A stretch of 25,688 nt of DNA from a virus: positions 1 to 25,688 of the IMG/VR virus record IMGVR_UViG_3300021425_000171; one strand, written 5' to 3'. This document shows positions 424 to 23,700 of the stretch, one piece after another. Positions within the stretch are counted from its first letter, which is position 1, and each line of letters opens with the position of its first letter. The notes below the pieces were generated by a model that saw only the letters and a program-made list of their open reading frames with translations, ran no database searches and was not told where the DNA came from. The translations under genes were made by a program, and so were the position numbers.

Positions 424-699
424 TTATGTATTATTTCTTTTTGCTGCCTTTACCTCTTTTGATTTTTGTGCCTTTGCCTTGTTGCTTGCCCACTTACCTG
501 ATGCTCTAACCTGTTCTAAAACTACCAAGTAATGGTCTTGTATCTCGTCTTGCCTTTGTTTTGCCAGCCTCATAAGATTACGCAGTGTTCGTCTTGCGTT
601 CCTTTTTGTTCTGTCGCTTGGTCCTTGTTCAAACTTTTCGTTTGCTGCAAAGTATTCCAAGTATGCCTTTACCAGTTTATCATGCGTGTCGTCTGTCAT
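424..699 (-). CDS. Small basic helical protein of unknown function
   Basis: This 91-residue protein is predicted to be mostly alpha-helical, with a strongly basic C-terminal tail rich in Lys, Arg and Ala (the last 25 or so residues). I see no catalytic motif, signal peptide or membrane segment. The ATG at 697-699 overlaps the gp46 stop codon by four bases (ATGA), so it is translationally coupled to gp46. The next gene begins 3 bases after its stop. The composition and the setting beside the recombination nuclease genes make a nucleic-acid-associated role plausible, but that is inference. Short proteins of similar style occur next to gp46 in marine T4-like phages, and I know of no assigned function. 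The gene itself is well supported by the tight overlaps on both sides. Confidence 0.8.
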   Translation of the reverse strand: MTDDTHDKLVKAYLEYFAANEKFEQGPSDRTKRNARRTLRNLMRLAKQRQDEIQDHYLVVLEQVRASGKWASNKAKAQKSKEVKAAKRNNT

Positions 700-2471
700 T
701 CAACAATCTCTACATCGTTTGCATACGAGGTAAAGCCGTTCTCCTTAATAACTTTGAGAACATGATTAACTCTACCAACCAGTTCGTCTTTGTGTGAGAT
801 AAGGAAAACATTTTTGCTCCGCTCTCTACCCATCTTTTTCAACACACTCAATGCATTTTCGACACCAGCAGTGTCCATGCCACTATCAATAAGCTCATCG
901 ATAAACATCAAGTTAATACCTTGATATAAACTTTCCCAAACATCACGGAATGCAAAGCTCATGCCTAGTATAAGTCTGTTGCGTTCACCACGTGACAAGT
1001 TGTCAAAGTCCAAATCTTGACCTAATTGTGTAATCTCAACATTTAGATCATTTTGGAATCTAACTTGATGAGGAAGTCCTAGTCTATCCAAGTAATAGGT
1101 TAGTCTATTATTCAAGTATGCCAGATTCTGATCAATAATCTTTTTACGTATAAAACTGTCTTTGTTAGTAAGAAGTTTAAGCAAAAAGTCTTGATGTTCT
1201 TTCAAATTTGTTAAATCATTAACTGGTTGCCAGTCAATTTGTTGTATTGCTGTTTCATTTAAGTCATCAATCTGTGTTTGATAAGGATCATCTTCAATTT
1301 TTTTGTTTTCCAATGCAATTTTCAAGTTTTCAACATTGTTTCTATGTTCATATGCTTCTTTAGCACTTTCATAAAACGTGTTAGGACGTCCGTTGATCTC
1401 ACCAATTTCGTTTAATGTGTTCATAGTTGTTTCTAATTTGTCTGCAACCTCTGTTTGGTATGCTAGTGCATCAGTTAATTCTTTTTGTTTACGAGTTTCG
1501 ATCTCTGCTTTCTTATCCGCATGTAGCGTTTGACCGCAAGTGTAACAAATAGCATCGTCAAGTTCTTTGATATCCTTTTCTGCTTTGTCAACACCTTTGG
1601 TTGCTCGCATCAATGCTGTTTCTAGTGTTGCTTTCTCTTTATTCAAACTAGTTATGCGATTATTCAGCTCTGTCCAGTTTGTTAACTTGTCATGTGCTTC
1701 TAATTCTGCATCAATATCTAGTTTTTCTAGCTCAACAATGCCTTTTTCAAGTTTTTCAATGTCAGTTTTTTGTTTTGCAGCCCATGCACGTTGTCTTCCG
1801 GCAAGCGTTTCAATGCTTTGTTCAATTTTTTTGTTGCTTGCCTCTATTGCATTGATCTTTAACGTTTCTTCTGTAATAGCATCCTTGGTTTTTCGTGTTT
1901 GTTCTTTTAATAAGTCTGCTTTTTCGGTAAGAATAGTAATACCAAGTAGTTGTTCAATGATTGCTCGTTGATCATTAGCCCGCATACTCAAGAATGGCTC
2001 GGTGTAAGTATTCAGTGCAAGGATATGCTTGAACATATCGTGGCTCATACCCAGTAATTCTTGCACATCTTCCTGTGTTTTACGGCTATCGCCTTGCGAT
2101 TCGTCAATATCTTCTTTTTGTTCTTGATCATTGACGTAAAATTTGAATACATTAGGAGATCTTCCACGTTCAATACGATATTTGTTATTGCCCTTTTCAA
2201 AGTTTAATGTTACCAACATGCCTTTGCTGTTGGTTTTGTTAATTAAATTGTTTCTTTTGATATTTGTTAGAGCAGTTCCGTATAACGCATAACTCAACGC
2301 ATTGATAATAGTTGTTTTACCAGTGCCATTACGACTTCCGGTGTCGTCACCGCCTTGATCTAAGTTTTCACCAAGCACAAGTGTTAGTTGCTCTTCATTA
2401 AAGTCAACTGCTTGGGTAACATTACCCACACTCATAAAGTTTTTTACTGTAAGATCTTTAATTCTAATCAT
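696..2471 (-). CDS. 46: gp46 recombination endonuclease subunit (Rad50/SbcC-like ATPase)
   Basis: This 591-residue SMC/Rad50-type ATPase partners with gp47 in resecting double-strand ends for phage recombination and recombination-dependent replication. The N-terminal half-site has a Walker A motif ending G-T-G-K52-T-T, preceded by an unusually long Gly/Asp-rich P-loop entry (residues 34-49). A central coiled coil (about 180-450) is rich in Lys, Glu and Leu and contains a zinc-hook Cys-x-x-Cys at C309/C312. The C-terminal half-site has an ABC signature L-S-R-G-E (about 490), a Walker B stretch L-M-F-I-D-E (about 520) and a terminal L-I-S-H-K-D H-loop. The start codon at 2471 overlaps the end of gp47 by 8 bases, the classic gp47-gp46 arrangement. 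Length and motif order are complete. Family membership is certain; the phage role is inferred from T4. Confidence 0.96.
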   Translation of the reverse strand: MIRIKDLTVKNFMSVGNVTQAVDFNEEQLTLVLGENLDQGGDDTGSRNGTGKTTIINALSYALYGTALTNIKRNNLINKTNSKGMLVTLNFEKGNNKYRIERGRSPNVFKFYVNDQEQKEDIDESQGDSRKTQEDVQELLGMSHDMFKHILALNTYTEPFLSMRANDQRAIIEQLLGITILTEKADLLKEQTRKTKDAITEETLKINAIEASNKKIEQSIETLAGRQRAWAAKQKTDIEKLEKGIVELEKLDIDAELEAHDKLTNWTELNNRITSLNKEKATLETALMRATKGVDKAEKDIKELDDAICYTCGQTLHADKKAEIETRKQKELTDALAYQTEVADKLETTMNTLNEIGEINGRPNTFYESAKEAYEHRNNVENLKIALENKKIEDDPYQTQIDDLNETAIQQIDWQPVNDLTNLKEHQDFLLKLLTNKDSFIRKKIIDQNLAYLNNRLTYYLDRLGLPHQVRFQNDLNVEITQLGQDLDFDNLSRGERNRLILGMSFAFRDVWESLYQGINLMFIDELIDSGMDTAGVENALSVLKKMGRERSKNVFLISHKDELVGRVNHVLKVIKENGFTSYANDVEIVE

Positions 2472-3480
2472 GTAACCCGCTATAAATGTCTAATAACAAT
2501 TTCTTATCAAATTGTTCTGTATCAATTGCTTGAATTTCGTTACTTACAATCTGATCTACACTTTCAAACTGTGCAATATCCAAGTCTGTGTTAATTTCTT
2601 CCATTAGTTTCTGAGGTATAAGTGTGATTTCTCTACACCCATACTGCTCAATAAACGTTTCTTTGATATAACTTGCTTCTTCGTAACTGATATCAATGTC
2701 TAAGGTAACTCTTAGATACATTTTACTTTGTAAGAGTGTGTCTTTTTCATCTATCAGCTGTGACAACTTGACTGTTCTATACTTTGGACAATCTGGCCAG
2801 TTGATATACTCTGGCTCAGCATCGTTTAGTCTATCCAGTATCATCATACCACGATCATCATCCCACGCATCTGCATAGTTGTGTGGGAAAGCATTACCAA
2901 TGTAGTGAATCTTGCCTTGCTTTTGTCGCTTGTGAAAGTGTCCTGAGAACACATACTCTTGGTTCTTGAAGTGTTCAGCTTTAAGCTCTCCATGATCAGG
3001 CATCTGCACCATAGCATTCATGTAGAAGCTGGGCAGCTCAAAGTGTCCAAACAAATATTTTGCATCTAACTTCTCAATACGTTTCCATTCTTCACCTACA
3101 AGCGAAGGGATCAGTGCTACATCTTGTATGACTGTGATATCATCAACTACTGTAATTCCTGGAATGTGCCTTGCAAACTCAGTAGAGCTAACATCACGCT
3201 TGTCTTTGTAGTATAAGTCGTGGTTACCAGAAAACATGTAGAACTTTTCAAACGATTCACCTAGTTTCTCCAACAACCTAATGGTTGTATCCATGGTTGT
3301 AAGGTTCAAACTGTTTCTGTTATGGTGCCAGTCGCCGCAAAAGATGCCTGTTTCGCAATTGTTTGCTTTTGCTGTTTCAATATACCAGTCAATATACTCT
3401 TCACAGTCCTGATTATGGACACGTGAGTTACCTTTCATACCTAGATGTATGTCAGTAAACACTGCTGCTTTTTTAAACAA
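2464..3480 (-). CDS. 47: gp47 recombination nuclease subunit (Mre11/SbcD-like)
   Basis: This 338-residue calcineurin-type metallophosphoesterase is the nuclease partner of gp46. All metal-binding motifs are visible in order: D10-x-H12, G-D50-x-x-H53, G-N86-H87-D, H146, and G-H181-x-H183. The C-terminal third would be the capping and Rad50-binding region. The ATG at 3480 has a GGAG ribosome site 7 bases upstream and places the DxH motif at the normal distance from the N-terminus. The 47-base gap to gp55 holds a sigma70-like promoter (TATAAT at 3503-3508), so the gene can be expressed from its own start as well as by readthrough from gp55. It overlaps gp46 by 8 bases. The motif set is intact, so an active Mn-dependent nuclease is expected by family analogy. 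Confidence 0.95.
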   Translation of the reverse strand: MFKKAAVFTDIHLGMKGNSRVHNQDCEEYIDWYIETAKANNCETGIFCGDWHHNRNSLNLTTMDTTIRLLEKLGESFEKFYMFSGNHDLYYKDKRDVSSTEFARHIPGITVVDDITVIQDVALIPSLVGEEWKRIEKLDAKYLFGHFELPSFYMNAMVQMPDHGELKAEHFKNQEYVFSGHFHKRQKQGKIHYIGNAFPHNYADAWDDDRGMMILDRLNDAEPEYINWPDCPKYRTVKLSQLIDEKDTLLQSKMYLRVTLDIDISYEEASYIKETFIEQYGCREITLIPQKLMEEINTDLDIAQFESVDQIVSNEIQAIDTEQFDKKLLLDIYSGLHD

Positions 3481-3502: not shown

Positions 3503-3531
3503 ATTATACAAGAAACATTGACAAAGATCAA
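3503..3531 (-). promoter_or_regulatory. Sigma70-like promoter for gp47
   Basis: On the minus strand a perfect -10 box TATAAT (3503-3508) is preceded by TTGATC (3526-3531, matching the first four bases of TTGACA) with exactly 17 bases between them. The -35 box overlaps the end of gp55. Transcription would start near 3496 and leave a leader of about 16 bases carrying GGAG. The geometry matches the gp55 promoter, but the -35 match is weak. Confidence 0.55.
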
Positions 3532-4361
3532 CCTTTATCTTTGTTCAAGCCCTCTCTTCTCATTGCTGCTTCCCATTCTCCGTGGTGCAATCTGGTGTGA
3601 CTTGGGTTAAGATCGTTCATTTCTAGTATGTCATCTCTAATATTTTGATTGCGTTTTTCTAAATTGATAACTCTAACAAAACTGTTTGTTACAGCAGCGG
3701 TATAATATGCAAAAGGATTGTTTGATTTAGATTCGTCAAATTGTAGTCCTATTTGTGAAAGTTGCAGAATTGCTTGTCCTTTCATTTCGTCATTGTAAGT
3801 ATAACCACGAACATTTCCTCTTGTAGCATATCTATCTACTAGTTTCATCCACATTCGAGCCAATTCGTTAGTTGCTCTTCCGTGACTAATGTTAAAGTAT
3901 CCATTCTCCATACCACCTTCCCAGTGGCTTTTTCCTACACATACAAGATTGTCGTTTTCATCAAATTTGTAATGTTGAAAAGGTGGAAAATTAAGTTTTA
4001 CTTTTGTATCCGCTACAGTTTTAGGGTTTTTCTTACGCCCAGGCTCTTCTGGAATATGATCAAACGTCATTATACGGAAGATTAAATCTGTTTTTTCGAT
4101 AGTCCTGTAATCTACTTCAAATTCAGATTGCTTAACCTTTTTGTTAACTGCCTTTGCTTCTTCGTAAGCAGCAGTTGACATTTTTTTAGCACGGTTACGC
4201 TTTGCTTCAGCGACTGTTCGTATGTTAATTTTATCTACACTAGGCAAAATTATGTCAAATGTAGCGTATGCTGGGTCCACAAAGCTACAAAACGTTAGTT
4301 TACTTTTGTGTATCTCTTTCAGCATGTCTTTATTGTTTAAATAATTTACTTTTCTGGCCAT
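3528..4361 (-). CDS. 55: gp55-like sigma factor for late transcription, with large insertion
   Basis: Read from the ATG at 4361 this is a 277-residue protein. T4 gp55 is about 185 residues and directs host RNA polymerase to TATAAATA-type late promoters. The N-terminal Tyr-Leu-Asn-Asn-Lys motif (residues 7-11) resembles the start of T4 gp55. The sigma-like core follows at about 161-245, including Y-N-D-E-M (189-193), F-D-E-S-K (208-212), N-P-F-A-Y (215-219) and a basic E-K-R-N-Q helix with I-R-D-D (235-244). Between these lies an extra segment of about 140 residues (22-160) absent from T4. A longer frame begins at 4442, but that start would overlap gp48 and lies upstream of the promoter at 4383-4411. 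The ATG at 4361 has AAGG 10 bases upstream and a predicted 15-base leader. The C-terminus lacks the hydrophobic clamp-binding tail of T4 gp55. Confidence 0.85.
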   Translation of the reverse strand: MARKVNYLNNKDMLKEIHKSKLTFCSFVDPAYATFDIILPSVDKINIRTVAEAKRNRAKKMSTAAYEEAKAVNKKVKQSEFEVDYRTIEKTDLIFRIMTFDHIPEEPGRKKNPKTVADTKVKLNFPPFQHYKFDENDNLVCVGKSHWEGGMENGYFNISHGRATNELARMWMKLVDRYATRGNVRGYTYNDEMKGQAILQLSQIGLQFDESKSNNPFAYYTAAVTNSFVRVINLEKRNQNIRDDILEMNDLNPSHTRLHHGEWEAAMRREGLNKDKG

Positions 4362-4382: not shown

Positions 4383-4411
4383 ATAATAAACTACGCAGTT
4401 AAATTTGTCAA
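4383..4411 (-). promoter_or_regulatory. Sigma70-like promoter for the gp55 operon
   Basis: On the minus strand a perfect TTGACA (4406-4411) is followed after exactly 17 bases by TATTAT (4383-4388, one mismatch to TATAAT). The predicted start near 4376 leaves a 15-base leader before the gp55 ATG at 4361, with AAGG at its 5' end. This is the best sigma70 promoter in the window and would let unmodified host polymerase express gp55, gp47 and gp46 before late genes are on. Confidence 0.75.
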
Positions 4412-4418
4412 CTAAATA
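4411..4418 (+). promoter_or_regulatory. Candidate T4-type late promoter upstream of gp48
   Basis: ACTAAATA keeps the six-base core TAAATA of the T4 late box TATAAATA. It lies 17 bases upstream of the gp48 ATG, and a start six bases downstream would put the transcript 5' end at about 4424, just before the AGGAG ribosome site (4425-4429). It directly abuts the -35 box of the divergent gp55 promoter. The two-base mismatch makes it tentative. Confidence 0.5.
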
Positions 4419-4435
4419 CTGCATAGGAGAATGCA

Positions 4436-5284
4436 ATGGCAATAGATTACAGATCAGAATACCCTCAGGTGACTGAAGAAGCTCGCCGTAGGTTACAGCT
4501 TATCGAACAAACTCAAGGTCCTGCACAAGTCAAAGCAGAAATTGATAGATTGAACGGCAGCGGCAATAGACGTCCTGCGGCAACTACAAATTTAAGTGAT
4601 CTAACAATCGATTCTCCGAATTTAATGAGTAATTGGAGGAAACGCAACATTCCTCGAACAACTCCAGAAGCTAGACAACCTGCGCCACCTGTTCAATTTG
4701 GAACTGACAATGGCGGAGGAACGGATTGGCGTGTAAAAATAAGTAATCCTTTTGGCGCTGTAGGACCATTAGCACCCCTTGGTAAAACAGGCGGGTTAAT
4801 GTTTCCAATTCAGCCGCAAATTACAATGAATGGACAAGCCAATTACGATGATGTTGCTCCTATACATAATAATTATCCCTTTCCGGCATATCAGAACAGC
4901 CAACCTGGTAGTATAACAATAGTAGGTGAATTTCCTGTTGAATCTCCAGAGGATGCAGATTATTGGGTAGCTGCAACACATTTTTTACGCAGCGCAACAA
5001 AAATGTATTACGGAAACACATCGAACAAAGGTGCTCCGCCACCAATAGTAAAACTTAACGGTTACGGTAACTATGTTATGAAAAATATACCTTGTGTAGT
5101 TGAGCAATTTACAACAGATTTACCAAATCAAGTTGATTATATCAGATCCACTGGAGGAAATTACGTTCCAGCTGATAGCACAATAAATGTTGTATTGAAA
5201 CCAATTTACAGCAGAAACAAAGTTGAACAGTTCAGCTTAGACAGCTTTGTATCTGGCGGACTAATAAGTCAAGGATACATCTAA
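4436..5284 (+). CDS. 48: Baseplate tail tube cap protein (gp48-like)
   Basis: This 282-residue protein belongs to the tail tube cap/initiator group of T4-like phages, which sits on the baseplate hub and starts tube assembly. The N-terminal 95 residues are polar and Pro-rich. From about residue 97 (D-W-R-V-K-I) comes the conserved tube-like beta domain with F-P-I-Q-P-Q-I-T, a P-I-H-N-N-Y-P-F turn, W-V-A-A-T-H-F-L-R-S, P-P-I-V-K-L-N-G-Y-G, and a C-terminal P-I-Y-S-R-N-K-V-E-Q-F-S stretch. The ATG has AGGAG 6 bases upstream. It is the first gene of the rightward late block, and its stop overlaps the gp53 start as TAATG. gp48 and gp54 are homologous. I favour gp48 because it directly precedes gp53, as in marine T4-like phages, but gp54 is the alternative. 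Confidence 0.78.
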   Translation: MAIDYRSEYPQVTEEARRRLQLIEQTQGPAQVKAEIDRLNGSGNRRPAATTNLSDLTIDSPNLMSNWRKRNIPRTTPEARQPAPPVQFGTDNGGGTDWRVKISNPFGAVGPLAPLGKTGGLMFPIQPQITMNGQANYDDVAPIHNNYPFPAYQNSQPGSITIVGEFPVESPEDADYWVAATHFLRSATKMYYGNTSNKGAPPPIVKLNGYGNYVMKNIPCVVEQFTTDLPNQVDYIRSTGGNYVPADSTINVVLKPIYSRNKVEQFSLDSFVSGGLISQGYI

Positions 5285-5586
5285 TGGCAGAATACGCAAA
5301 AACAAGTCCATATTTCAAAACACCTTTTTCTGTTTCGGGCGAATTAGGAACATTTGTTATTAGACCAATACCGGCAAACGATGACGATGTGGTTTACACA
5401 ATTGAAAATCAGTATACACACAGACCCGATTTACTTGCATATGACTTGTATGGTAGCAGCAAACTATGGTGGGTATTTGCACAAAGAAATATGGATATTA
5501 TAAAAGATCCGATATACGATTTTAAGGCAGGTATTAGTATACGTTTGCCAAATGATGGCGATTTAAGAAAGGTTATTGGACTCTAA
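5284..5586 (+). CDS. 53: gp53 baseplate wedge subunit
   Basis: This 100-residue protein matches the core of the gp53 family, part of the baseplate inner wedge together with gp6 and gp25. The recognisable part is the LysM-like stretch from about residue 40 to 95: Tyr-rich, with R-P-D-L-L-A-Y-D-L-Y-G, W-W-V-F-A-Q-R-N and a closing I-R-L-P. It is about half the length of T4 gp53 (196 residues), which suggests that only the conserved core is kept, as in other marine relatives. It starts in a TAATG overlap with gp48 and ends in another TAATG overlap with the next gene, so all three are probably translated in a coupled way in comparable amounts. Confidence 0.88.
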   Translation: MAEYAKTSPYFKTPFSVSGELGTFVIRPIPANDDDVVYTIENQYTHRPDLLAYDLYGSSKLWWVFAQRNMDIIKDPIYDFKAGISIRLPNDGDLRKVIGL

Positions 5587-9538: not shown

Positions 9539-10825
9539 ATGCCATATCAAGACCTACGCAGAATTGACAACGGACAAACAGGTCCTGCAGGTGGCCCAGC
9601 GACTCCAGAAAGCAGAGGCTTTGGCAAAGGAGCAGTAGATCCAGCAGCACCAGGACCTGGTGAAGGTAGTTTAGACGCAGCAGCAGCTTCTGCCCAAAAT
9701 CAACAAGCAGCACCAGGACCCGGTGAAGGTAGTTTAGACGCAGCAGCAGCTTCTGCCCAAAATCAACAAGCAGCACCAGGACCTGGTGAAGGTAGTTTAG
9801 ACGCAGCAGCAGCTTCTGCCCAAAATCAACAAGCAGCACCAGGACCCGGTGAAGGTAGTTTAGACGCAGCAGCAGCTTCTGCCCAAAATCAACAAGCCGC
9901 AGCAGATTCTCGCGGCGGTAACACAGAACCAGAACGCACCGAAATACTTGATCCAGCTTCATCGCCTGTAACTATTACCGTTGATACATTTGATGTTCCT
10001 GGCGCTACAGTAACACCTTGTGCTGGCCCGGCAGGTGCACCTGGTGGAGGCGGCGGTGGAGGCGGCGGCCTAGCAGGACAAGCACTGGGTCAACTATTAG
10101 GCGGTTTGCCAGAAGCAGCTCAACAAATGGTTAATGCTACTGGTGTAACAGGCGCATTAGCCGGTATAGCACAAGAAATTGATGGAGAAATTGCAGGAGC
10201 ATTAGGGCAAATAAGCAATACATTCAACCAAGCAGCTGGTGCATTGTTTACAGATGTAGCAAATACAATTACTAATATCCCAGGTTTAGGTCCTGCAATA
10301 GAAAATATTACAAAAAACATAAGTGCATTTAACAGTGATTTACAAGGTGCTTTTGCAACATTAGATCCTGGCCTACAGCAAGTTATAGGCACAGCAGTAA
10401 ATGCAGTGGGCGCAAATATAAACAATCCGTTGATACGCACCGGATTTACTACTCTTTTTACACCTGCACAAGCAAGAGGAATTATACAAGGTTTGCAATT
10501 ACCCAATAATCCAGCAACGCAAATAGCACAAATAGCAAGAGCATCCGGTGTAGCTGCTCCGATTATGAACGAGTATTTTGGTAACACTGTGTTCTCTCAA
10601 TTGCAATCAAGAGCACTAACAGCTTCTACACAATTGAATAGAGCTATTGTGCCAAACGGAACACAATTTCAAGTTAGGCTTCAGTTGCCCACTATTAATC
10701 CTGCGGTAACTCAAGTAGTTAATGGAGTAATACAAAATCCAAACACTATGGTAAGTCAAGCACAAGCAAGAATTAATGAAACTATTGGTAGAATATCAAC
10801 AGGTGGATTTTCGATAAGGGTTTAA
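9539..10825 (+). CDS. Repeat- and glycine-rich protein of unknown function between spike and gp25
   Basis: This 428-residue protein has no family I recognise. Residues 1-35 are polar with Gly/Pro. Residues 36-119 are four perfect copies of a 21-residue unit (starting A-A-P-G-P-G-E-G-S-L-D, ending A-Q-N-Q-Q). A short beta-like stretch (about 140-158) leads to P160-C161 followed by a polyglycine run (about 165-177), matching a module in the 746-residue protein upstream of the spike. The rest (180-428) is Ala/Gly/Asn/Gln-rich and reads as mostly amphipathic helix with a short beta C-terminus. No PAAR-type motif is seen, although the gene sits directly after the spike where a tip protein could be encoded. 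AAGGAG lies 5 bases before the ATG. It is followed after one base by gp25. A spike-associated structural role is inferred from position only. Confidence 0.75.
   Translation: MPYQDLRRIDNGQTGPAGGPATPESRGFGKGAVDPAAPGPGEGSLDAAAASAQNQQAAPGPGEGSLDAAAASAQNQQAAPGPGEGSLDAAAASAQNQQAAPGPGEGSLDAAAASAQNQQAAADSRGGNTEPERTEILDPASSPVTITVDTFDVPGATVTPCAGPAGAPGGGGGGGGGLAGQALGQLLGGLPEAAQQMVNATGVTGALAGIAQEIDGEIAGALGQISNTFNQAAGALFTDVANTITNIPGLGPAIENITKNISAFNSDLQGAFATLDPGLQQVIGTAVNAVGANINNPLIRTGFTTLFTPAQARGIIQGLQLPNNPATQIAQIARASGVAAPIMNEYFGNTVFSQLQSRALTASTQLNRAIVPNGTQFQVRLQLPTINPAVTQVVNGVIQNPNTMVSQAQARINETIGRISTGGFSIRV
9644..9895 (+). repeat. Four tandem 63-bp in-frame repeats with alternating T/C marker
   Basis: Four contiguous 63-bp units begin at 9644, 9707, 9770 and 9833. 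By direct reading they are identical except at one synonymous position (GGACCTGG or GGACCCGG): T at 9658, C at 9721, T at 9784, C at 9847. The alternating pattern means the array arose by duplicating a two-unit (126-bp) block. There is no spacer between units. Confidence 0.95.
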
Positions 10826-14300: not shown

Positions 14301-14776
14301 ATCCAACAAAATACAAACCATTGTTTGGGAGCAAGGCTGACGTGGATTTACAAGCAAGTTTCAAAGTAGTTAAAAACAGTGGAAGGGTTGTAAATGATAA
14401 TGATGTAAAGTCCAGAGTAATTGATGCAATTAACACTTATTTTGCATTAGAGAATTGGGACTTTGGAGAAACATTTTATTTCCAAGAACTAGCGGCATAT
14501 ATTACTAACCAATTAGCACCTGATATTGTAAGCATTGTAATTGTTCCAACAGCAGCAAATCAAGTTTTTGGTAGCTTGTTTGAAATAAAAAGCGAAAATG
14601 ATGAAATTTTTGTAAGCGCAGCAACAGTAGATGATGTTGAAATTATCGATGCAATTACAGCAAGTAGATTACAAGCCAATGGTGAAGTAGTTACAAGTGA
14701 CCAAAGTTTAAATACTGGAGTGCAGAGTGAATCTGCAGACAACGGCGTTATTATTACAAGCACAGGAAATTATTAA
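11315..14776 (+). CDS. 6: gp6 baseplate wedge subunit (long form)
   Basis: This 1,153-residue protein forms the ring-shaped inner baseplate that holds the wedges together and changes shape on sheath contraction. The N-terminus shows the gp6 pattern: W-K-R-V-Y-Q-S-F-K, Y-P-E-D-F-N-D-Y-I, then A-L-I-D-L-I-A-F-L-G-Q-N-L-A-F-R-A-D-L-N-A-R-E-N and an Arg-rich helix (residues 75-110). The core seems complete, with a J-like domain through about 620. It is far longer than T4 gp6 (660 residues). The additional C-terminal part includes a Ca-binding-loop-like motif at D815-x-D817-x-D819-G-x-x-D823. The final segment (about 1000-1110) contains F-G-E-T-F-Y-F-Q-E-L-A-A-Y-I, typical of the wedge C-terminal domain. 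AAGGA lies 7 bases before the ATG. The stop overlaps the next start as TAATG. Confidence 0.9.
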   Translation: MASTERQNRLLLAEDWKRVYQSFKYADFQSYDFDNLRRTMINYIRQNYPEDFNDYIESSEYLALIDLIAFLGQNLAFRADLNARENYLETADRRESVLRLARLISYNVKRNQPASGLLKIESISTTENIIDSNGLNLSTQSVLWNDSTNGDWFEQFTRIMNAALPVTNKFGRPIKIATIQGVTTEQYRFNSNSANLPVFGFNKPIDSQGINFEVVSANIDDESIYEEAPLPSNRLGFLYRDDGQGPGSNNTGFFFHFRQGKLKNNTFEIATSVPNTTINIDNDNINNSDVWLYKLDSNGAESELWEKVDNVEGNNIIYNSVSKGIRNIFTVLTRINDQISLIFSDGTFGEIPKGNFRAYYRESANIEFTATPNDLFGINIKIPYVSATGKTETVSMTLALQETISNAATSESSDSIKQNAPATYYTQNRLITGEDYNIGALNVLQDIIKTKAINRTSSGISRYYDLRDATGKYSNTLLFGNDGILFKEVLDKDQTFDFITKTDIEGVIENTIEPMLRNTRLKNYYYDNFPRNEQITNLNIVWNLTTFDTNRSTGLFLDSNDFEVQVSSFTTSILKFVEPGSLIKFTAPDGYHFMEDNTLMLGAADHLGARDYIWVKVISVEEDGTVISPDTGLGPIVLNDRVPTGCKIQEIIPIFNDEISVDVSRQLVDQIFAYKTFGLRYDVSLRQWRIIINENLNVADDFSLGKQGDVTGETLDSSWLLLFETDGRKYNVKSRGTRYVFESADDIRFFYDSSDRIYDSKTGRIVKDTIKVLNINNQPDSLSPFTVDWTWKIDKEFKNVAGYINSKKIELSFFDSDDDGVVDDPDVFEHLIAPSTNSDTKYIFEKKAIINRTETYNYISATEANIAVIASESVANPLSQWADGKVFYIPNRDVFLVYNQSANKLEYTNQYKAFVGRDNLKFEYSHAADENARIDPSSSNLIDVYLLTQGYDTNYRNWLQGKVQNMPLPPSNDQLFLQYGQDINKIKSISDDVIYHPTKYKPLFGSKADVDLQASFKVVKNSGRVVNDNDVKSRVIDAINTYFALENWDFGETFYFQELAAYITNQLAPDIVSIVIVPTAANQVFGSLFEIKSENDEIFVSAATVDDVEIIDAITASRLQANGEVVTSDQSLNTGVQSESADNGVIITSTGNY
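13757..13792 (+). other. EF-hand-like calcium-binding loop within gp6
   Basis: Codons for gp6 residues 815-826 read D-S-D-D-D-G-V-V-D-D-P-D. Positions 1, 3, 5, 9 and 12 of an EF-hand-type loop are all acidic, with Gly at position 6. Loops of this kind bind calcium in many structural proteins; binding here is inference. Confidence 0.5.
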
Positions 14777-17700
14777 TGGCTAAAGACGATAAAACAGTTC
14801 CGCAACCAGACGGCAAAAACTACAAAAGATCATCTGCAGAATTTCTACCGCAGTATTTTAGAACACCAACTAACAAAAAGTTTTTGCAAGCAACAATAGA
14901 CCAATTTGTTTCAGACGGGGTTGTTGAAAAAATCAGTAGTTTTGTAGGGAAGAAAGAAGCTAAAGCAGTTTCTATTAATGATACTTACTTGCCAGAGGTA
15001 AGCACTGATCGTGAAAATTATCAGTTAGAGCCATATGCAGTATATAACGATGATCTAGGCAACACCGAATTTAGTGCGGACTATTTAGATTACATTGGCC
15101 TTGTCAATACATTCAGAGGAAATACAGAAAATCATAGTAAATTAAATGAACAAGAATTTTATGCATGGAATCCGCATATTGATTTTGATAAGTTTACAAA
15201 TTTCCGTGAATACTATTGGCTACCGAACGGTCCACAAGAAGTGCCTGTAAGAGGACAGAGTAAAGACGTAATAAGCACCTATACTTTAACAACTGTTACT
15301 GATGACGACAATACAGCATTGTTGTTTACTCCAGATGGACGCACAAGAAATCCTGAACTTAAATTATATAGAGGACAAACCTATCGTTTTGAAATTAATG
15401 CAGATGGGTATCCTGTAACAATAGCAATTGATAGAAATTTTATTCCTTTTTTATCTAACGAAGATGTTGTAAACGAAGTAAGTGCCGAAAACAATATTAT
15501 AAATGAAATATTTGGACAAACTTTAACTGCATGGGTTGAAGGAATAGATTGGCAAAATGTTAGATTAGAAACAAATGAAATTAATGCTGGCAAGGGTAGT
15601 ATTAATATATCTCAGTTTGCTAACCCTGATGTTGTAACCAGTATTGTTAATGTTGCATTTACCAGTTTCCAAGAACAGTGGAATGCTTTGGTAGATCCAT
15701 TAATAGATAGTTCTGATTTACTTTGTAAAAACGATTTACAATTGACAAGCACATCTGGTAACGATACTATTATATCGGACCAAATAAGATATGATAGGCA
15801 AGAATATATTGCAGATGCTAATTTTTCAAATTCTACACTTGCAATTAAAAATACAATTTTTTCTGATGTAGTAAATGAAGTGCTAAAAAATTATACCGAT
15901 CCTGACAGAGCTGAAGTTGAAAAAGCTCTTTACGATGCGGGGCAAATTTCATTAGATACACTGGACTTTAGCTATGCTATCAAATTATACAATTTTACAG
16001 AACGCAGTGCTCAAGCAATAACACAAGGCGATGAAAATCAATCTTTTGTGTATAATGAAGGTGTTAAATTATTTCCTACACCCATTGAAGGCGACACAAA
16101 CGAACTTAGCGATTTTGTAAATCCTGGCTATATTGAGAACGGAGTTTTAGAATTTACTGTTCCGGATAATGCACCTAACGAATTATACTTTGTAAGTCAA
16201 ACAAATATTGATACAAGTTGCCGTTTGCGTGTTTACGATATAGAAGAAAATTCGGAGATTGATGTAGAACAGGAAATTATCGGTAAAAAGACTTACACTA
16301 CATCTGCAGGATGGGATTTTTCAAATGGTATGAAAGTTTACTTTATAGGAGACGTTACACCTGCAAAGTATGCTGAAGGATTTTATTATGTCGAAGGTGT
16401 TGGCACTAGTATTAACTTAATACCTGTTAATGAATTGAGTGTGCCTGCAATTTTCACACAAGATACTCAAGTTCCTTTTGATTCGAATGGATTTGACAGA
16501 GTGCCGTTTAGTGATGCATTAAGTTTTGCTGGGACAAAAGATTATATTGTAATCAATCGCAGCAGTGCAGATAGAAACGGATGGACTAGATACAATCGCT
16601 GGTTCCATAAAGATGTTATTCTAAAAAGTGCTGAAATTAATTTACAAGAACAATATGCTTTTGACGAAGCAGCAAGAGCAAAAAGACCTATTATAGAATT
16701 TGAATCAGGCTTGCGTTTATACAATCACGGAACCAAAGCTAAACAGATTGTTGACCTAGTTGACGATTATACAAAAGATGTTTTTAGCATTATCGAAGGC
16801 ACAATTGGTTATAACGTAGACGGAGTAGATTTAGCAGAAGGTCAGAGAATATTATTTACAGCCGACCCAGATCCGTTTGTATCTGGTAAAATCTATGAAG
16901 TTAAATTTATTGATCATAATAATAAAAAGAACAGAATTAGCCTTGTAGAAACAGCTGACACTGATCCTGCTGTTGACGAAACTGTGCTTATCAAAAATGG
17001 TAACAATTATGCTGGACGTATGTTCTACTATAATGGTGATACATGGACATTAGCTCAAGACAAAAATGCAATTAATCAATTTCCAAAATTTGATTTATAC
17101 GACAAAGATGGTAACAGTTATGGCGATATAGACGTTTATCCATTAACAACATTCAAAGGTAACAACATATTCTCTTACCAAGTAGGCGAGGGTGTAAATG
17201 ATACAGAGTTAGGCTTTCCTGTTGTTTATAAAAATCTTGTAAATTCAGGAGATATACTTTTTAACTTTGATATGCTGAAAGAATCTTACACATACGAAGT
17301 TGCAGGTGTTACAGTAAATTTAGAAGCAGATGTTGCTTATATCAAAAAATACAATATTGCTGGAGATGAATTTGCCTATGAAAATAGTTGGAAAAAAGCA
17401 AATACAAAAAGCAGTCAATATGTTGTTAGAAAATACACAGGACGTGAACAGGTAAATTCTTTCAAAATAGATTTCTTTAATAACAGTGCTAGAATACAAG
17501 ATTTAAAATTAGTTGTATATCATAATAATAAATTAATGATTGAAAACGTTGATTATGAGCAAATCAACATCAATCGTTCGAGATTTGTAGTTTTTGAAAA
17601 TGACATAGATTTTGATGATATAGTTATTATAAAAGGAAAAAGTAATCAACCTAAAAATGCAAATGGCTATTATGAAACACCTTATAACTTAGAACGCAAT

Positions 17701-20700
17701 CCTCTAAATGATAATATAGAAGAATTTACATATGGACAAGTTGCAGACCATGTTGAAAACTTGATTGTAGAATTACAAGGATTTGAAGGTATCCAACCTG
17801 GTAGAAATAATCTACGTGATTTAGGATCTGTATATCAATATGGTAGAAAATTTGTTAAACACAGTGGGCCATTGAATTTACCTTTGGTTAATTTAGCCAA
17901 CAAAGATAATAATGTAATCAATGCCATTAGGTTTGCAAAAAAAGAATACAGTAAATTTAAAAGAGATTTTATACAGGTAGCCGAAACACTAGGTGTTGAT
18001 ACATCAGTAAAACAACACGTCGATTTAATACTTGCAGAATTAAAGAAAAACAAAAGATCAAGTATGCCTTTTTATGATACGGACATGGCAGGATCTGGCG
18101 GATACAATAGATTAGAATATACAGTTTTAGATATTGATGTAAAATACTATGCTTTATCTGCTCCTTATTCTTTATCAATTGAAAATAGAAAGGCAGTATA
18201 TGTATACGTAAACGATTTACAAATTTGTTACGGAGTGGATTACACTTTTACTAACGAAGGTTTTGTTTACATAACTAAAGATTTGGCTGTTGACGATACT
18301 ATTGAAATTCGTGAATACGAAACCACAGAAGGCAGTTATATACCTCCTACTCCAAGTAAATTGGGTATGTATCCAGCATACAAGCCAGAAATATTTGTTG
18401 ATACAACTTATGTAGATCCTGTAACTGCAATAAGAGGACATGATGGCAGTATCACAATTGCTTATGAAGATTACAGAGATGATTTATTACTCGAATTAGA
18501 GCGCCGTATTTACAATAACATAAAAGTAACTTACGATACCGATATATTTGATATACACGATTATGTCGGTGGAGAACACAGAAATACAGGTATATCTAAA
18601 GCAGATTTGGATAATGTGTTAATAACTGACTTTGTGTCATGGTTAAGAACAGCAGGTAATGTTGATTACACAGATAACAGTTTTATACAGCAGTTCTCTA
18701 CACTAACATACAATTACGGTGCAAGTATAAGCCCAAAAGGAAATCAATTACCTGGATTTTGGAGAGGTGTGTATTTACAAGCATATGACACAGATTCGCC
18801 TAATCTTCGTCCATGGGAGATGTTAGGATTTAGTGTTCAGCCATCATGGTGGGAGACAGTATATGGTCCAGCACCATACACAAAAGACAATTTAATTTTA
18901 TGGAAAGATCTTGAAAAAGGTATTGTTAGAGAACCAAACAAGCAACCTGTTGTAAGAAAAAAATATCTTAGACCAGGATTAACAAGTGCTATTCCTGTAG
19001 ACGAATCTGGAAGAATTCGTAGTCCGTTAGACAGTTCTTTTGCAAGAGAATTTAGTTTTGCAATATCAAGAAATTTGCTTTTCAAATTTGGAGATGTAGC
19101 ACCTGCAGAAGCAGCATGGAGACGCAGCAGTGATTATGCTTTTGCAATCATTATTGCCGCTCTTGCAAATAGACCAGCAGCCGTAACAGGTTTGTTATAT
19201 GATCGTAGCAGGGTATCAAGAAACAAAGTAGGAAATTTAATCTATTCAAATACTAATAAAATTATAAAATTAGATAGTTTGGTGTTTCCTAAAACACAAC
19301 AAAATGATGTAATAAATTATACAGCCGGTTTAATTGATTATATTCAGGCATATATGCAATCAAGTGTAGATGCAAACTATACAAAATATATGACTACTGT
19401 AAAAAATCTAGACACTAAAATAGGTTTTAAAGTAGGCGGCTTTGCAGATAAAAACAAACTCCGTATTGTATTAGACAGTAGGACACCTCTTAATAAAGGC
19501 AACGTATTTGTTCCACAAGAAAACTATGATATAGTTCTTAAAAAATCTAGCCCATTGCAGGTAATTTCTTATAGCGGAGTAATTATTGAAAAAGTTGCAG
19601 GTGGATATCGTGTATCTGGTTATGACCAAGAAGATCCGTATTTTTATATTAATCCTGTTCAAATATCAGACGGCGATCCAGCAGTTAATGTTGGCGGTAT
19701 AAGCGAAAGTTTCTTAGAATGGGATGAAGGAAAAATATTCGACAAAGGACGAATTGTGGAATATCTAAATTCATACTATAGAGTAACTGAAACTCATACC
19801 AGTAACGATACATTTGACCAAAGCAAATTTGCTCGTTTAGCTACTCTACCTGTAGTTGGTGGAGCAACTGCAATATTTAGAAAAAACTTCAGCACTAGTG
19901 TTACAAAAATAAACTATGGCACAGTGTATGCAGATATTCAACAAGTTGTGGATTTTCTTTTAGGGTATAATCAGTATTTAGAAAACGTTGGGTTTGTATT
20001 TGATTATAATAATCCGCAGTATGAAGCAGTTGAAAATTTCAATTTGCTTGCTCGTGAATTCTTGTTCTTTACAACTGAAAATTGGGCTGGAGGAACAGTA
20101 TTAACTTTAAGTCCTGGAGCAAATCAAATTAAATTTAACACTGATTATTTTACTGTAGATGATATATTTGATAATTTCCTTGGTTACACAATCAAGCAAA
20201 TTGACGGAAGTGTATTGCGTTTTGAATTTACTAATACTGTTAGAGAAGATGGTAACAGTTTTAGTTTGTTTCCTATTAATACAACTGAAGGCATTTTCTT
20301 TTCCAAGCTAACATTGGTGCAAAAAGAACATGTTGTATTAATAGATAATAAAACAGTGTTCAATGATACTATATATGATCCTGCATCTGGCTATAGACAA
20401 GAGCGTATAAAGGTTACTGGATACAGAACAGACGAGTGGGATGGTAGTTTAAACATACCAGGATTTATTTACGACCAGGCTAAGTTTACAATATGGGAAC
20501 CTTGGCAAGATTATAGAGTAGCAGATGTTGTCAAATACAAAGAGTCATATTATTCTGCTAAGTCTAGTTTAAGCGGACAAGCAAATTTTGACCCAGAAGA
20601 ATGGACTTTGTTATCAGAAAAACCAACTGAAAGTGTAAAACCTAACTTTGATTATAGAACAAAACAGTTTAATGACTTTTATGATCTTGATACAGATAAT

Positions 20701-23700
20701 TTTGATAGCGAACAACAGCGTCTTGCACAGCATTTGATAGGATATCAAAAAAGAGAATATCTATCAAATATAATTACAGACGATGTAAGTGCATACAAAT
20801 TTTATCAAGGTTTTATTCAAGATAAAGGCACTCTAAACAGTTTGACTAAACTGTTTGATAAATTAGGCAGTGCTGAAAAAGATAGTTTAGAGTTTTTCGA
20901 AGAATGGGCATTTAGAACTGGACAATATGGTGCAACTGATGCATACAAAGAAGTTGAATATCAACTAGACGAATCTAAATTTAGAATTGAACCTCAAACT
21001 ATAGAATTAGTCCAAACAGTTGATGATACAAGAACAGACCTAGTATTCCAGTATCCTGTTAAGGATGTGTTTATTAAAGAACCTGATTATAATCATGCAC
21101 CATTTCCTACTACATGGACAACAGATCAAGTTACAAAGACAGGCGGATATGTAAGTTTAGACCAAATAGACTTTATTAGTAAAACTTTAGAAGATACTTT
21201 AAATTTAGATATTGATTTAATACAAATAGGAAGTATTATATGGGTTCCAGAATTTAAAAATACATGGGATGTATTTGAAGTTATAAATTCTCCAATTTAC
21301 ATTGAGTCGATTGAAAAAACAGCCAACGGATTTGATGCTATATTCAACACCAATGTAATATTCAGCGAAGGCGACATTGTTGGACTGAAAAATATTAACG
21401 AAGAATTAGATGGCTTTAGACTTGTAAGAGCTATAAAAGGAAACCGTGCAGAATTTTATACTACACAGCCAATTGCCGACGAATCGCTCGACTTAACGGA
21501 TAGCACATTAGGATCAGTAATTCAATTGTTAAGCAAAAGGGTTGCCGATGTTGATGCTATGAATACAGTAATAACATCCTACGGATTATCACCTAATAGC
21601 AAGTTTTGGATTGACAATGCAGGCAATGAAAGATATGCAGTTTATCAAAATAATGAAATATTCTTGTCACAGAATACATTTGCAAACAGGCAAGAAGGAA
21701 TAACAGATTTTGGCAAATCCTTTGCAGTCAATGGTAGTAACACAATTTTAGCTATAAGCGATACAAATACAAGTGTTTATGTTTACAATAGATTCAGTAG
21801 TGTTGTAGATTATAGATATGCACAAGAATTAAATCCTTTAACCGATCTATATGATGCAGATTCTAACTTCGGTCAGGAAATAGAAATTACTGCTGACGGA
21901 AATTGGTTGATTGTAGGTGCTCCTACAGCTACAAATGTTAAAACAAACTACAAAGGTGAAATACAACAAACTTCATATGTTGCTGGAGATATTGTTAGCG
22001 ACGGTGGGTTGTTCTTCAGAGCAATACAAGACATAAACTTTGATAGCAGCACTATAAACACACAATCTCAAGATTGGGAACAAGTCAACGCAATAGAAGC
22101 AATTGAAACAGGAACAGGTAGCGGACTTAACGATCAAGGCGCTATACATATCTACAGAAGACAAACAGATAATAGTTTTGCAATTCATCAAACTATTGTT
22201 TCGCCTTATCCTCAAGCAGACGAAAAGTTTGGTATTGCTATAAAAACATCTTTTGATAAAAATACATTAAACACTAGACTGTATGTTAGAAGCGAGAAAA
22301 ACAATGGTAGATTGTATTTCTTAGATTTACCTAGCATTAATAGCAATTTTGGTTACAGTAGAGATCCTTTATACAGAGGCAAGTTTGATGCTAATGTAAA
22401 ATACATAGCGGGAGAGATTGTAGAAGATAATACTGTAATTTACACTGCTAAACAAACAGTGCCAGCAGGCAATCCTTTTAATCCTGATCATTGGGATGTT
22501 ACAAGTAGCAATATTGATAGACTTGGTTATGTTCCGATATTATCAGATGAAAATGTATTAGCTGGATTAGATGATAGCACAGCATTTGACAGTAATGTTA
22601 GAATTGCTGAAAACTTTGATGTTACTGACAACGGAGAAGTATTAGCAATAACAAGTCTTACTAGCACCAATGAATATAAGATAACAATTTATAGAAAAAT
22701 AGAAGACAGACTTGCAATACATCAAACTATAAATGCAAGCGAACTAAACATTGGCTTTGGACACTCAATAAGTTTAAACTATGACGGAAGTTTACTTGCA
22801 GTAGGTGCTATGGAAGCTGATGACCAAGGAACAGATATTGGTAAAGTATTTGTATTTAAATACAATACTGACACATTAGAGTTTGATTTACATCAAGAGC
22901 TGTTTACTCCAACACCAAACAGAAACGAAAAGTTTGGATGGCAGGTAGATTTTAGTGAAGACAAACTAGCAGTAACAGCAATAAATGGATTAAATGAAGA
23001 AACATATTTGTTTGATAGTAATCAAACAGTTTTTGACAGTGAATCTACAAAGTTTGTAGATAAAATACCTAATCGTTTAGAAATATACGTTTACGAAAAT
23101 ATAAACAATAAATTTGTTTATGCAGAAACAATAGATTATTATTATAGATATATTGATGTATCTGGACAGCAAGCGACAGCAAGATTAAATGATGCATATG
23201 ATCCAAGAATTATATTCAATAAAAATCATGTAATGCTAAGTCTGCCAACTGCATCTTTAGATGATACAGATACCTTATATGGTGCAGTATTTGATTTAGT
23301 AGGCACACAAAATGTAGATAGTTGGGAACTGTTAAGTTCACCTAAGGATTTTGTTGATTACGAAAAATTAAAAGGTGTGTTTTTGTATGATAAAGACACT
23401 GGCGACCTTATTACATATCTTGATGTAATTGATCCAATTCAAGGTAAAATAGCAAATGTAGCAGAGCAAGAAATCAGTTACAAGTTATATTATGATCCAG
23501 CAGTATACAATACAGGTAGCACTGATACTGGTATAAAAAATCCTTGGACAAATAATTATGTAGGAAAACTATGGTGGAATATTAGCACTGTTAAATGGTT
23601 TGATCCTTATAATGGTAATATTACCAGTCAAAACAACAAATGGAATAATCTAATTCCAAGTTTTGAAGTAGATGTTTATGAGTGGGTAGAAAGTCCATAT

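Follow-up and report, generated by a model that had tools for sequence, protein, structure and literature searches.

The gp55 locus and its promoters

The window, by which we mean the whole stretch of DNA analysed, is virus record IMGVR_UViG_3300021425_000171 (25,688 bases), and the gene studied here is its minus-strand gp55, a long form of the T4-type late sigma factor (Table 1). The open reading frame is intact, with an ATG at 4361 and 277 residues plus a stop (the program translation, P0001, starts one residue early, at the codon before this ATG), and residues 22-160 of the protein map exactly to the coordinates listed for the insert. The baseplate block starts at 4436 and diverges from gp55. 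Across the loci with enough flanking sequence, gp47 follows gp55 in 206 of 211, and a phrog_12050-type gene or a gp53-like gene lies divergently upstream of gp55 in 233 of 236.

Table 1. Features of the gp55 region of the window; residue numbers are those of gp55.
Feature	Position	Strand	Basis or remark
gp46	696-2471	-	beyond gp47
gp47-like nuclease subunit	2464..3480	-	directly downstream of gp55; phrog_100, E 7.5e-67
gp55, long form of T4-type late sigma factor	3528..4361 including stop (3531-4361 without stop)	-	ORF, phrog_12791, phrog_234
Sigma-2 core and following helix, residues 163-277	3531..3875	-	model, alignment
Insert domain, residues 22-160	3882..4298	-	no T4 counterpart; modelled alone; phrog_12791
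Beta hairpin NFPPFxHY ... VGKSHW, residues 122-148	3918..3998	-	alignment, model; kept in L257
FRxMTFDHIP, residues 95-104, most conserved insert stretch	4050..4079	-	alignment
Basic long helix of insert, residues 47-71	4149..4223	-	model, charge counts
N-terminal segment with helix 10-22, equivalent of T4 gp55 H1	4296..4361	-	model secondary structure
Sigma-70-type promoter for gp55	4383..4411	-	TTGACA 4411-4406, 17-base spacer, TATTAT 4388-4383; read from sequence
T4-type late-promoter-like motif ACTAAATA	4411..4418	+	before divergent baseplate gene, with GGAG 4426-4429 and ATG 4436
Divergent baseplate/virion structural gene	4436..5284	+	phrog_12050, E 2.5e-38

Three further features of the window are recorded here. 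Downstream of gp46, a minus-strand gene for a SegE-type GIY-YIG endonuclease (positions 1-420; PF19835, E 9.3e-34) is cut by the window end, and its top PHROG label, "NAD synthetase", looks wrong. On the plus strand, positions 9539-10825 encode a hypothetical protein with a near-perfect tandem repeat, APGPGEGSLDAAAASAQNQQA, near its N-terminus (four copies by eye), which matched none of the PHROG families at E 0.01. Also on the plus strand, an open frame of more than 3,600 codons within the baseplate block (14776-25686) runs off the window end.

The two promoter-like elements between gp55 and the baseplate gene recur among relatives. A TTGAC-N15-19-minus-10 arrangement stands upstream of gp55 in 120 of 187 unique relatives, compared with 9 of 3740 shuffles. 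Of 187 unique regions, 173 have the late motif NNTAAATA facing the divergent gene and 46 have it facing gp55, with 814 of 3740 shuffles containing it, and the forms found in the 173 were ACTAAATA (70), TATAAATA (42), GATAAATA (26), AATAAATA (16) and others (19). The window's ACTAAATA fits the Aeh1-type late-motif variant described in a T4 review (PMC2988020), and for CBB, a phage with a long gp55, PMC5259590 reports ATAAATA at 35 places as a predicted late promoter. Given a sigma-70-type promoter on one side and a late motif on the other, gp55 would appear to be driven by host sigma and the baseplate block by gp55.

In the window the -35 box of the gp55 promoter overlaps the oppositely directed late motif, the two standing back to back (TATTTAGTTGACA, 4383-4418), a compact arrangement kept in most close relatives. 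Exact TATAAATA, the likely late motif of related phages, does not occur in the window, against 4.0 occurrences expected from shuffles. The form with A at base -12 occurs in eight close relatives more than 70% identical to the window; a tie between that base (A or C) and particular gp55 residues was rejected, because the columns that separate the two classes follow phylogeny.

The insert and its predicted fold

The sequence-only reading had proposed that the N-terminal motif and the core of this protein match T4 gp55 while about 140 residues between them (22-160) have no T4 counterpart, and sequence and structure comparison agree on both points. In a phmmer search of the PDB the sole matches were the T4 structures 7d7c and 7d7d (7d7c_F, E 4.3e-5), in two pieces, query residues 5-31 and 173-238, the first of which scores 3.3 bits and is not significant alone. 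VIA-align placed residues 7-264 of the full model on residues 10-153 of T4 gp55 (Z 14.3, rmsd 3.1, 122 aligned). The core matches phrog_234 (E 1.7e-20) and residues 2-264, insert included, match phrog_12791 (E 9.8e-80).

Could the long form have arisen from a start or frameshift error? This is ruled out: 253 of the 256 scored loci, many of which are repeats of one contig, encode the full-length form, with 195 unique sequences, and of the other three, two are truncated by contig ends and the third, L257, is a short form that occurs naturally.

The residues that read the late promoter in T4 are largely present. The T4 cryo-EM study names the residues holding the -12, -9 and -8 bases and those docking on the clamp helices, and describes N13 as contacting the -9 base (PMC7892883). 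The equivalent of N13, N10 in the window, is N in all 95 aligned sequences, and among the other pocket residues R57 is kept in 91, F86 in 95, Y97 in 94 and T99 in 95. The H95 position is F in 95 of 95, as it also is in six of ten short gp55, and the L54 position is Y in 93 of 95.

Structure prediction of gp55 alone, proposed as a check in the sequence-only reading, returned the insert as a confident, compact alpha/beta domain. AlphaFold2 with 95 sequences gave a mean pLDDT of 92.3 and a pTM of 0.81 for full gp55, and residues 23-163 modelled alone gave 95.7 and 0.87. The model runs from helix 10-22 through strand 37-39, helix 47-71, strand 95-97 and a hairpin (129-133/139-144) to the sigma-2 helices. 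The suggested beta-like part with aromatic turns is thus present, NFPPFQHYKF and VGKSHW forming that hairpin. The suggested basic helix is also real and basic, but it is modelled at 47-71 and not at about 52-78. Its net charge is +4 in the window and averages +3.4 over 195 relatives, being positive in 87% of them, although a range from -3 to +7 means that the charge is not strictly conserved.

When the insert alone was searched against solved folds, nothing convincing was found in the PDB by Foldseek (best E 0.47) or by VIA (best Z 3.4, rmsd 3.1, 40 aligned), and no sigma factor or sigma NCR stood among the matches listed. Pfam gave the insert sub-cut-off matches only. Among predicted viral structures (BFVD) two matches had E below 0.001, A0A2Z5HHY8 (134 aa) and A0A8S5T0K9 (340 aa). 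The predicted fold of the former resembles the insert alone (E 1.2e-5, 30% identity), and this 134-residue viral protein is possibly a split or partial gp55. A tblastn search with the insert gave no convincing stand-alone relative among the best 60 of 73 records: 47 non-Bacteroides rows are gp55, or unannotated or hypothetical at known gp55 places, and 13 Bacteroides rows (capsid, portal, hypothetical; E 0.7-0.9) look like chance.

Six insert residues (I38, R96, H102, S145, H146 and F156) are invariant in the 95 aligned sequences, the window included, and the mean column entropy given with the FRxMTFDHIP stretch is 0.77, that of the sigma-2 core 0.64. Among the best-conserved insert residues, many (N124-P127, S145-W147, F156) are aromatic, proline or turn residues, which could simply form a core, and in L257 the insert is much reduced. 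Does the insert, then, mainly buttress the sigma-2 fold, with no partner of its own? We think this very improbable, as T4, cyanophage and other gp55 have a sigma-2 fold without any insert and as the insert is predicted to fold without the core.

Phages with the long gp55 and their late co-factors

Long gp55, taken as a tblastn match covering at least 80% of the query, was found in 57 of the 1789 cultured-phage records with some gp55 match (E up to 1). These are mostly jumbo phages: PA5oct-like, Phosso, Atu_ph07, RaK2-like, 121Q-like, CBB/GAP32-like, XbC2/XaC1, SCTP-2 and a Vibrio phage. In the other rows examined the match was confined to the gp55 core, and the insert is absent from all six short gp55 that were translated (T4, P-SSM7, ACG-2014b, Ps15, ACP17 and Campylobacter F368). 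Three pattern scans of IMG/VR gave at least 594, at least 594 and at least 593 confirmed relatives; in a fourth, seeded with SCTP-2 alone, one of four was a relative, and nine of 60 stretches from genome contigs were relatives.

A profile search with the insert alone retrieved phrog_12791 (E 9.3e-24). The idea of a peculiar insertion stands insofar as T4-like phages and cyanophages do not have it, and gives way in that one large clade has the inserted form as its usual one, which goes half of the way toward refuting that idea. The insert is a real, conserved domain of a known family and not an oddity of the window phage; it is apparently undescribed, as we found no description of it in the accessible portions of the gp55 literature searched, the T4 cryo-EM paper and jumbo-phage papers included.

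The natural short form, a 201-residue gp55 with a reduced insert (L257, positions 4800-5402), lies on a 235-kb Sphingomonas contig that is perhaps an unrecognised phage; within 10.4 kb around it nothing matched the gp47, gp46 or baseplate proteins of the window. It retains the hairpin from NFxPF to RSHW, but the basic helix and the FRxMTxxHIP strand are missing. In a tree built from the few core columns a weak branch (66/68) sets all ten short rows apart, and nine of these group at 98/90; L257 falls among the long rows, without resolution, on a long branch. On this tree the insert may have been gained once or lost once.

Do phages with the long gp55 still have the other T4 late factors? The gp33 model (PF16805) was over its cut-off in none of 17 long-gp55 records (six cultured phages plus eleven viral contigs of 105-453 kb, selected by size rather than at random, with fragments among them) and in five of six short ones, the miss being F368. 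No gp33-like family was seen among 38 small-protein families present in at least three of four long-gp55 genomes, the best hhalign probability being 2.4 compared with 45-95 between known gp33 groups. A candidate gp33 in Phosso (E 0.03) was weak and does not look like gp33.

The sliding clamp, gp45, is a caution. Its loss was first suggested by phrog_223, which matched in one of the 17 long records, and this was overturned with a closer seed, from Vibrio phage 2.275.O, which brought out a divergent clamp in all of the 17 but three records of 105-134 kb, hence in 14. The seed (L281, positions 2242-2961) is annotated as hypothetical, and the standard family model misses the clamp in 16 of 17. As a control, the clamp-loader family phrog_168 was matched in 23 of 23 records but also in 14 of 14 cellular controls, and its full-length matches numbered 12 of 17 long records (W01-W06, G001, G002, G004, G006, G007 and G010) and six of six short ones.

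These distributions bear on a reading in which the insert replaces gp33, reaching the beta flap or performing the coactivator role, so that late transcription needs the long gp55 and the clamp. The place of the sigma-2 insert is far from the beta flap in the sigma-70 holoenzyme, and gp33, a short, fast-evolving protein, is easily missed, as gp45 was until the closer seed was used. In the literature, PMC5259590 reports neither gp33 nor gp45 in CBB, and PMC7824862 gives group 2 jumbo phages a gp33 ortholog. We consider gp33 replacement unlikely, the counts in its favour notwithstanding. The broader proposal that the insert replaces other late co-factors is backed by a correlation only, the clamp being present but divergent and a gp33 ortholog being stated for group 2 phages.

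Candidate roles of the insert

The second set of contacts named in the T4 structure, those docking on the polymerase clamp, differs in the long forms. The docking acid E70 is kept (E in 44 of 45 long gp55, D in one), but D74 is D in nine of ten short gp55 and in two of 45 long ones (121Q and the Vibrio phage, which have both D74 and the insert), and E77 is E in nine of ten short and none of 45 long; these contacts are a detail taken from T4 that homology does not require. In the window D74 and E77 are replaced by Q196 and L199. Because both are fixed in one clade, the loss of docking acids and the gain or presence of the insert count as about one event.

Where does the insert sit in terms of other sigma factors? 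The full model aligned with residues 68-161 of sigma-S, a stretch of chain without a break (6omf_F; Z 10.4, rmsd 2.7, 91 aligned), and with E. coli sigma-70 (8ftd_L; Z 9.5, rmsd 3.0, 94 aligned) over residues 107-446. That only 94 residues align over a 340-residue span of sigma-70 indicates that its NCR, the boundaries of which we take to be about 130-373, and the insert are both skipped. From these alignment ranges we infer that the insert lies between helices equivalent to sigma regions 1.2 and 2.1, which would be the place of the sigma-70 NCR. "NCR-like" here refers to place only, kinship with any NCR being unsupported by the models.

What sequence and model show is a long T4-type gp55 that has retained, in its N-terminal helix and sigma-2 core, the residues for opening and reading a TATAAATA-type late promoter and that carries between these two parts, at the NCR place, a folded domain of about 140 residues. 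The suggestion that this domain provides an extra RNA-polymerase or DNA contact fits that much, the folded domain, its place, the basic helix and the lost docking acids all agreeing with it, and the contact itself is conjectural. As we picture it, the insert would occupy the outward side of sigma-2 within the holoenzyme and would add a second contact, with beta-prime at the clamp, with the DNA duplex immediately upstream of the -10 element or with both, possibly by way of the basic helix. Such a contact would offset the lost docking acids and help the sigma factor to hold core polymerase and open late promoters; that the phage does without gp33 thanks to the insert is possible, and of this we are less sure. 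The analogy is with the sigma-70 NCR, for which PMC7403470 describes contacts with beta-prime and with DNA at -16/-17.

We give this reading, of a sigma-2 insert adding a beta-prime and/or upstream-DNA contact, about even chances. In its favour are the site of insertion, a fold modelled with confidence even in isolation, the basic helix and the loss of docking acids. Against it count the variable charge of the helix, the fixing of insert and docking-acid loss in one and the same clade, the two long forms that keep D74 and the failure of the insert to match any solved NCR that we found. L257, which has also lost the docking acids and has no basic helix, argues against that helix as the compensating part.

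A different use of the same site would be to dock another phage protein or the divergent clamp, much as regions of sigma-70 and sigma-S bind RbpA, Crl and GcrA. Published activators cluster on sigma regions 1.2, NCR, 2.1 and 2.3 (PMC7403470). In addition, a strict pattern for the T4-type C-terminal clamp-binding tail was absent from all 195 unique long gp55, and clamp binding, if kept, may need another site, but the same pattern missed four of five short gp55, among them Ps15, whose tail looks plausible. The partner is also still hypothetical, and we rate docking of this kind as a rather doubtful alternative to the extra contact.

The boldest version of the extra-contact reading is that a large clade of phages uses a one-protein sigma factor in which an independently evolved domain of new fold, in the NCR place, has taken over contacts with polymerase and upstream DNA and made gp33 dispensable. 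We would not expect this to be so, but if true it would stand beside the split-sigma design of T4 as a second solution, and would be a case of convergent evolution with the sigma-70 NCR. Although gp55 is the textbook minimal sigma factor, its long form occurs widely among marine viral contigs and jumbo phages of laboratory hosts, and the insert may be a new handle on polymerase or promoter DNA common to many marine and giant phages. Where it is inserted also makes it a natural case to compare when asking what sigma NCRs do. A T4 review raises the question of why gp55 and gp33 never occur as one protein (PMC2988020); it becomes open to test, using E. coli polymerase, through a gp55 that has an extra domain at the NCR site and is accompanied by no detectable gp33.

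How, finally, does the window gp55 compare with known systems? The sigma-70 NCR has its insertion point in common with the insert, by structural alignment, but no match in fold or sequence was found between it and this domain of about 140 residues, which is both alpha and beta. T4 gp33 (PF16805) is a separate protein at the beta flap with no sequence similarity to the insert that we could see; its coactivator function is the one replaced if the gp33-replacement reading holds. T4 gp55 (7d7c, 7d7d; phrog_234) is alike in its N-terminal helix, sigma-2 core, pocket residues and late motif, and differs in being without the insert, in keeping E70, D74 and E77 and in having a C-terminal clamp-binding tail. 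Closest are the phrog_12791 gp55 of RaK2, 121Q, CBB, GAP32, PA5oct, Atu_ph07 and SCTP-2, with full-length likeness, insert included, and, in the regions examined of the cultured phages of this family, the same divergent gene order as in the window. The window gp55 is a marine-type member of this group, 30-49% identical to the cultured long forms and with no essential difference from them.
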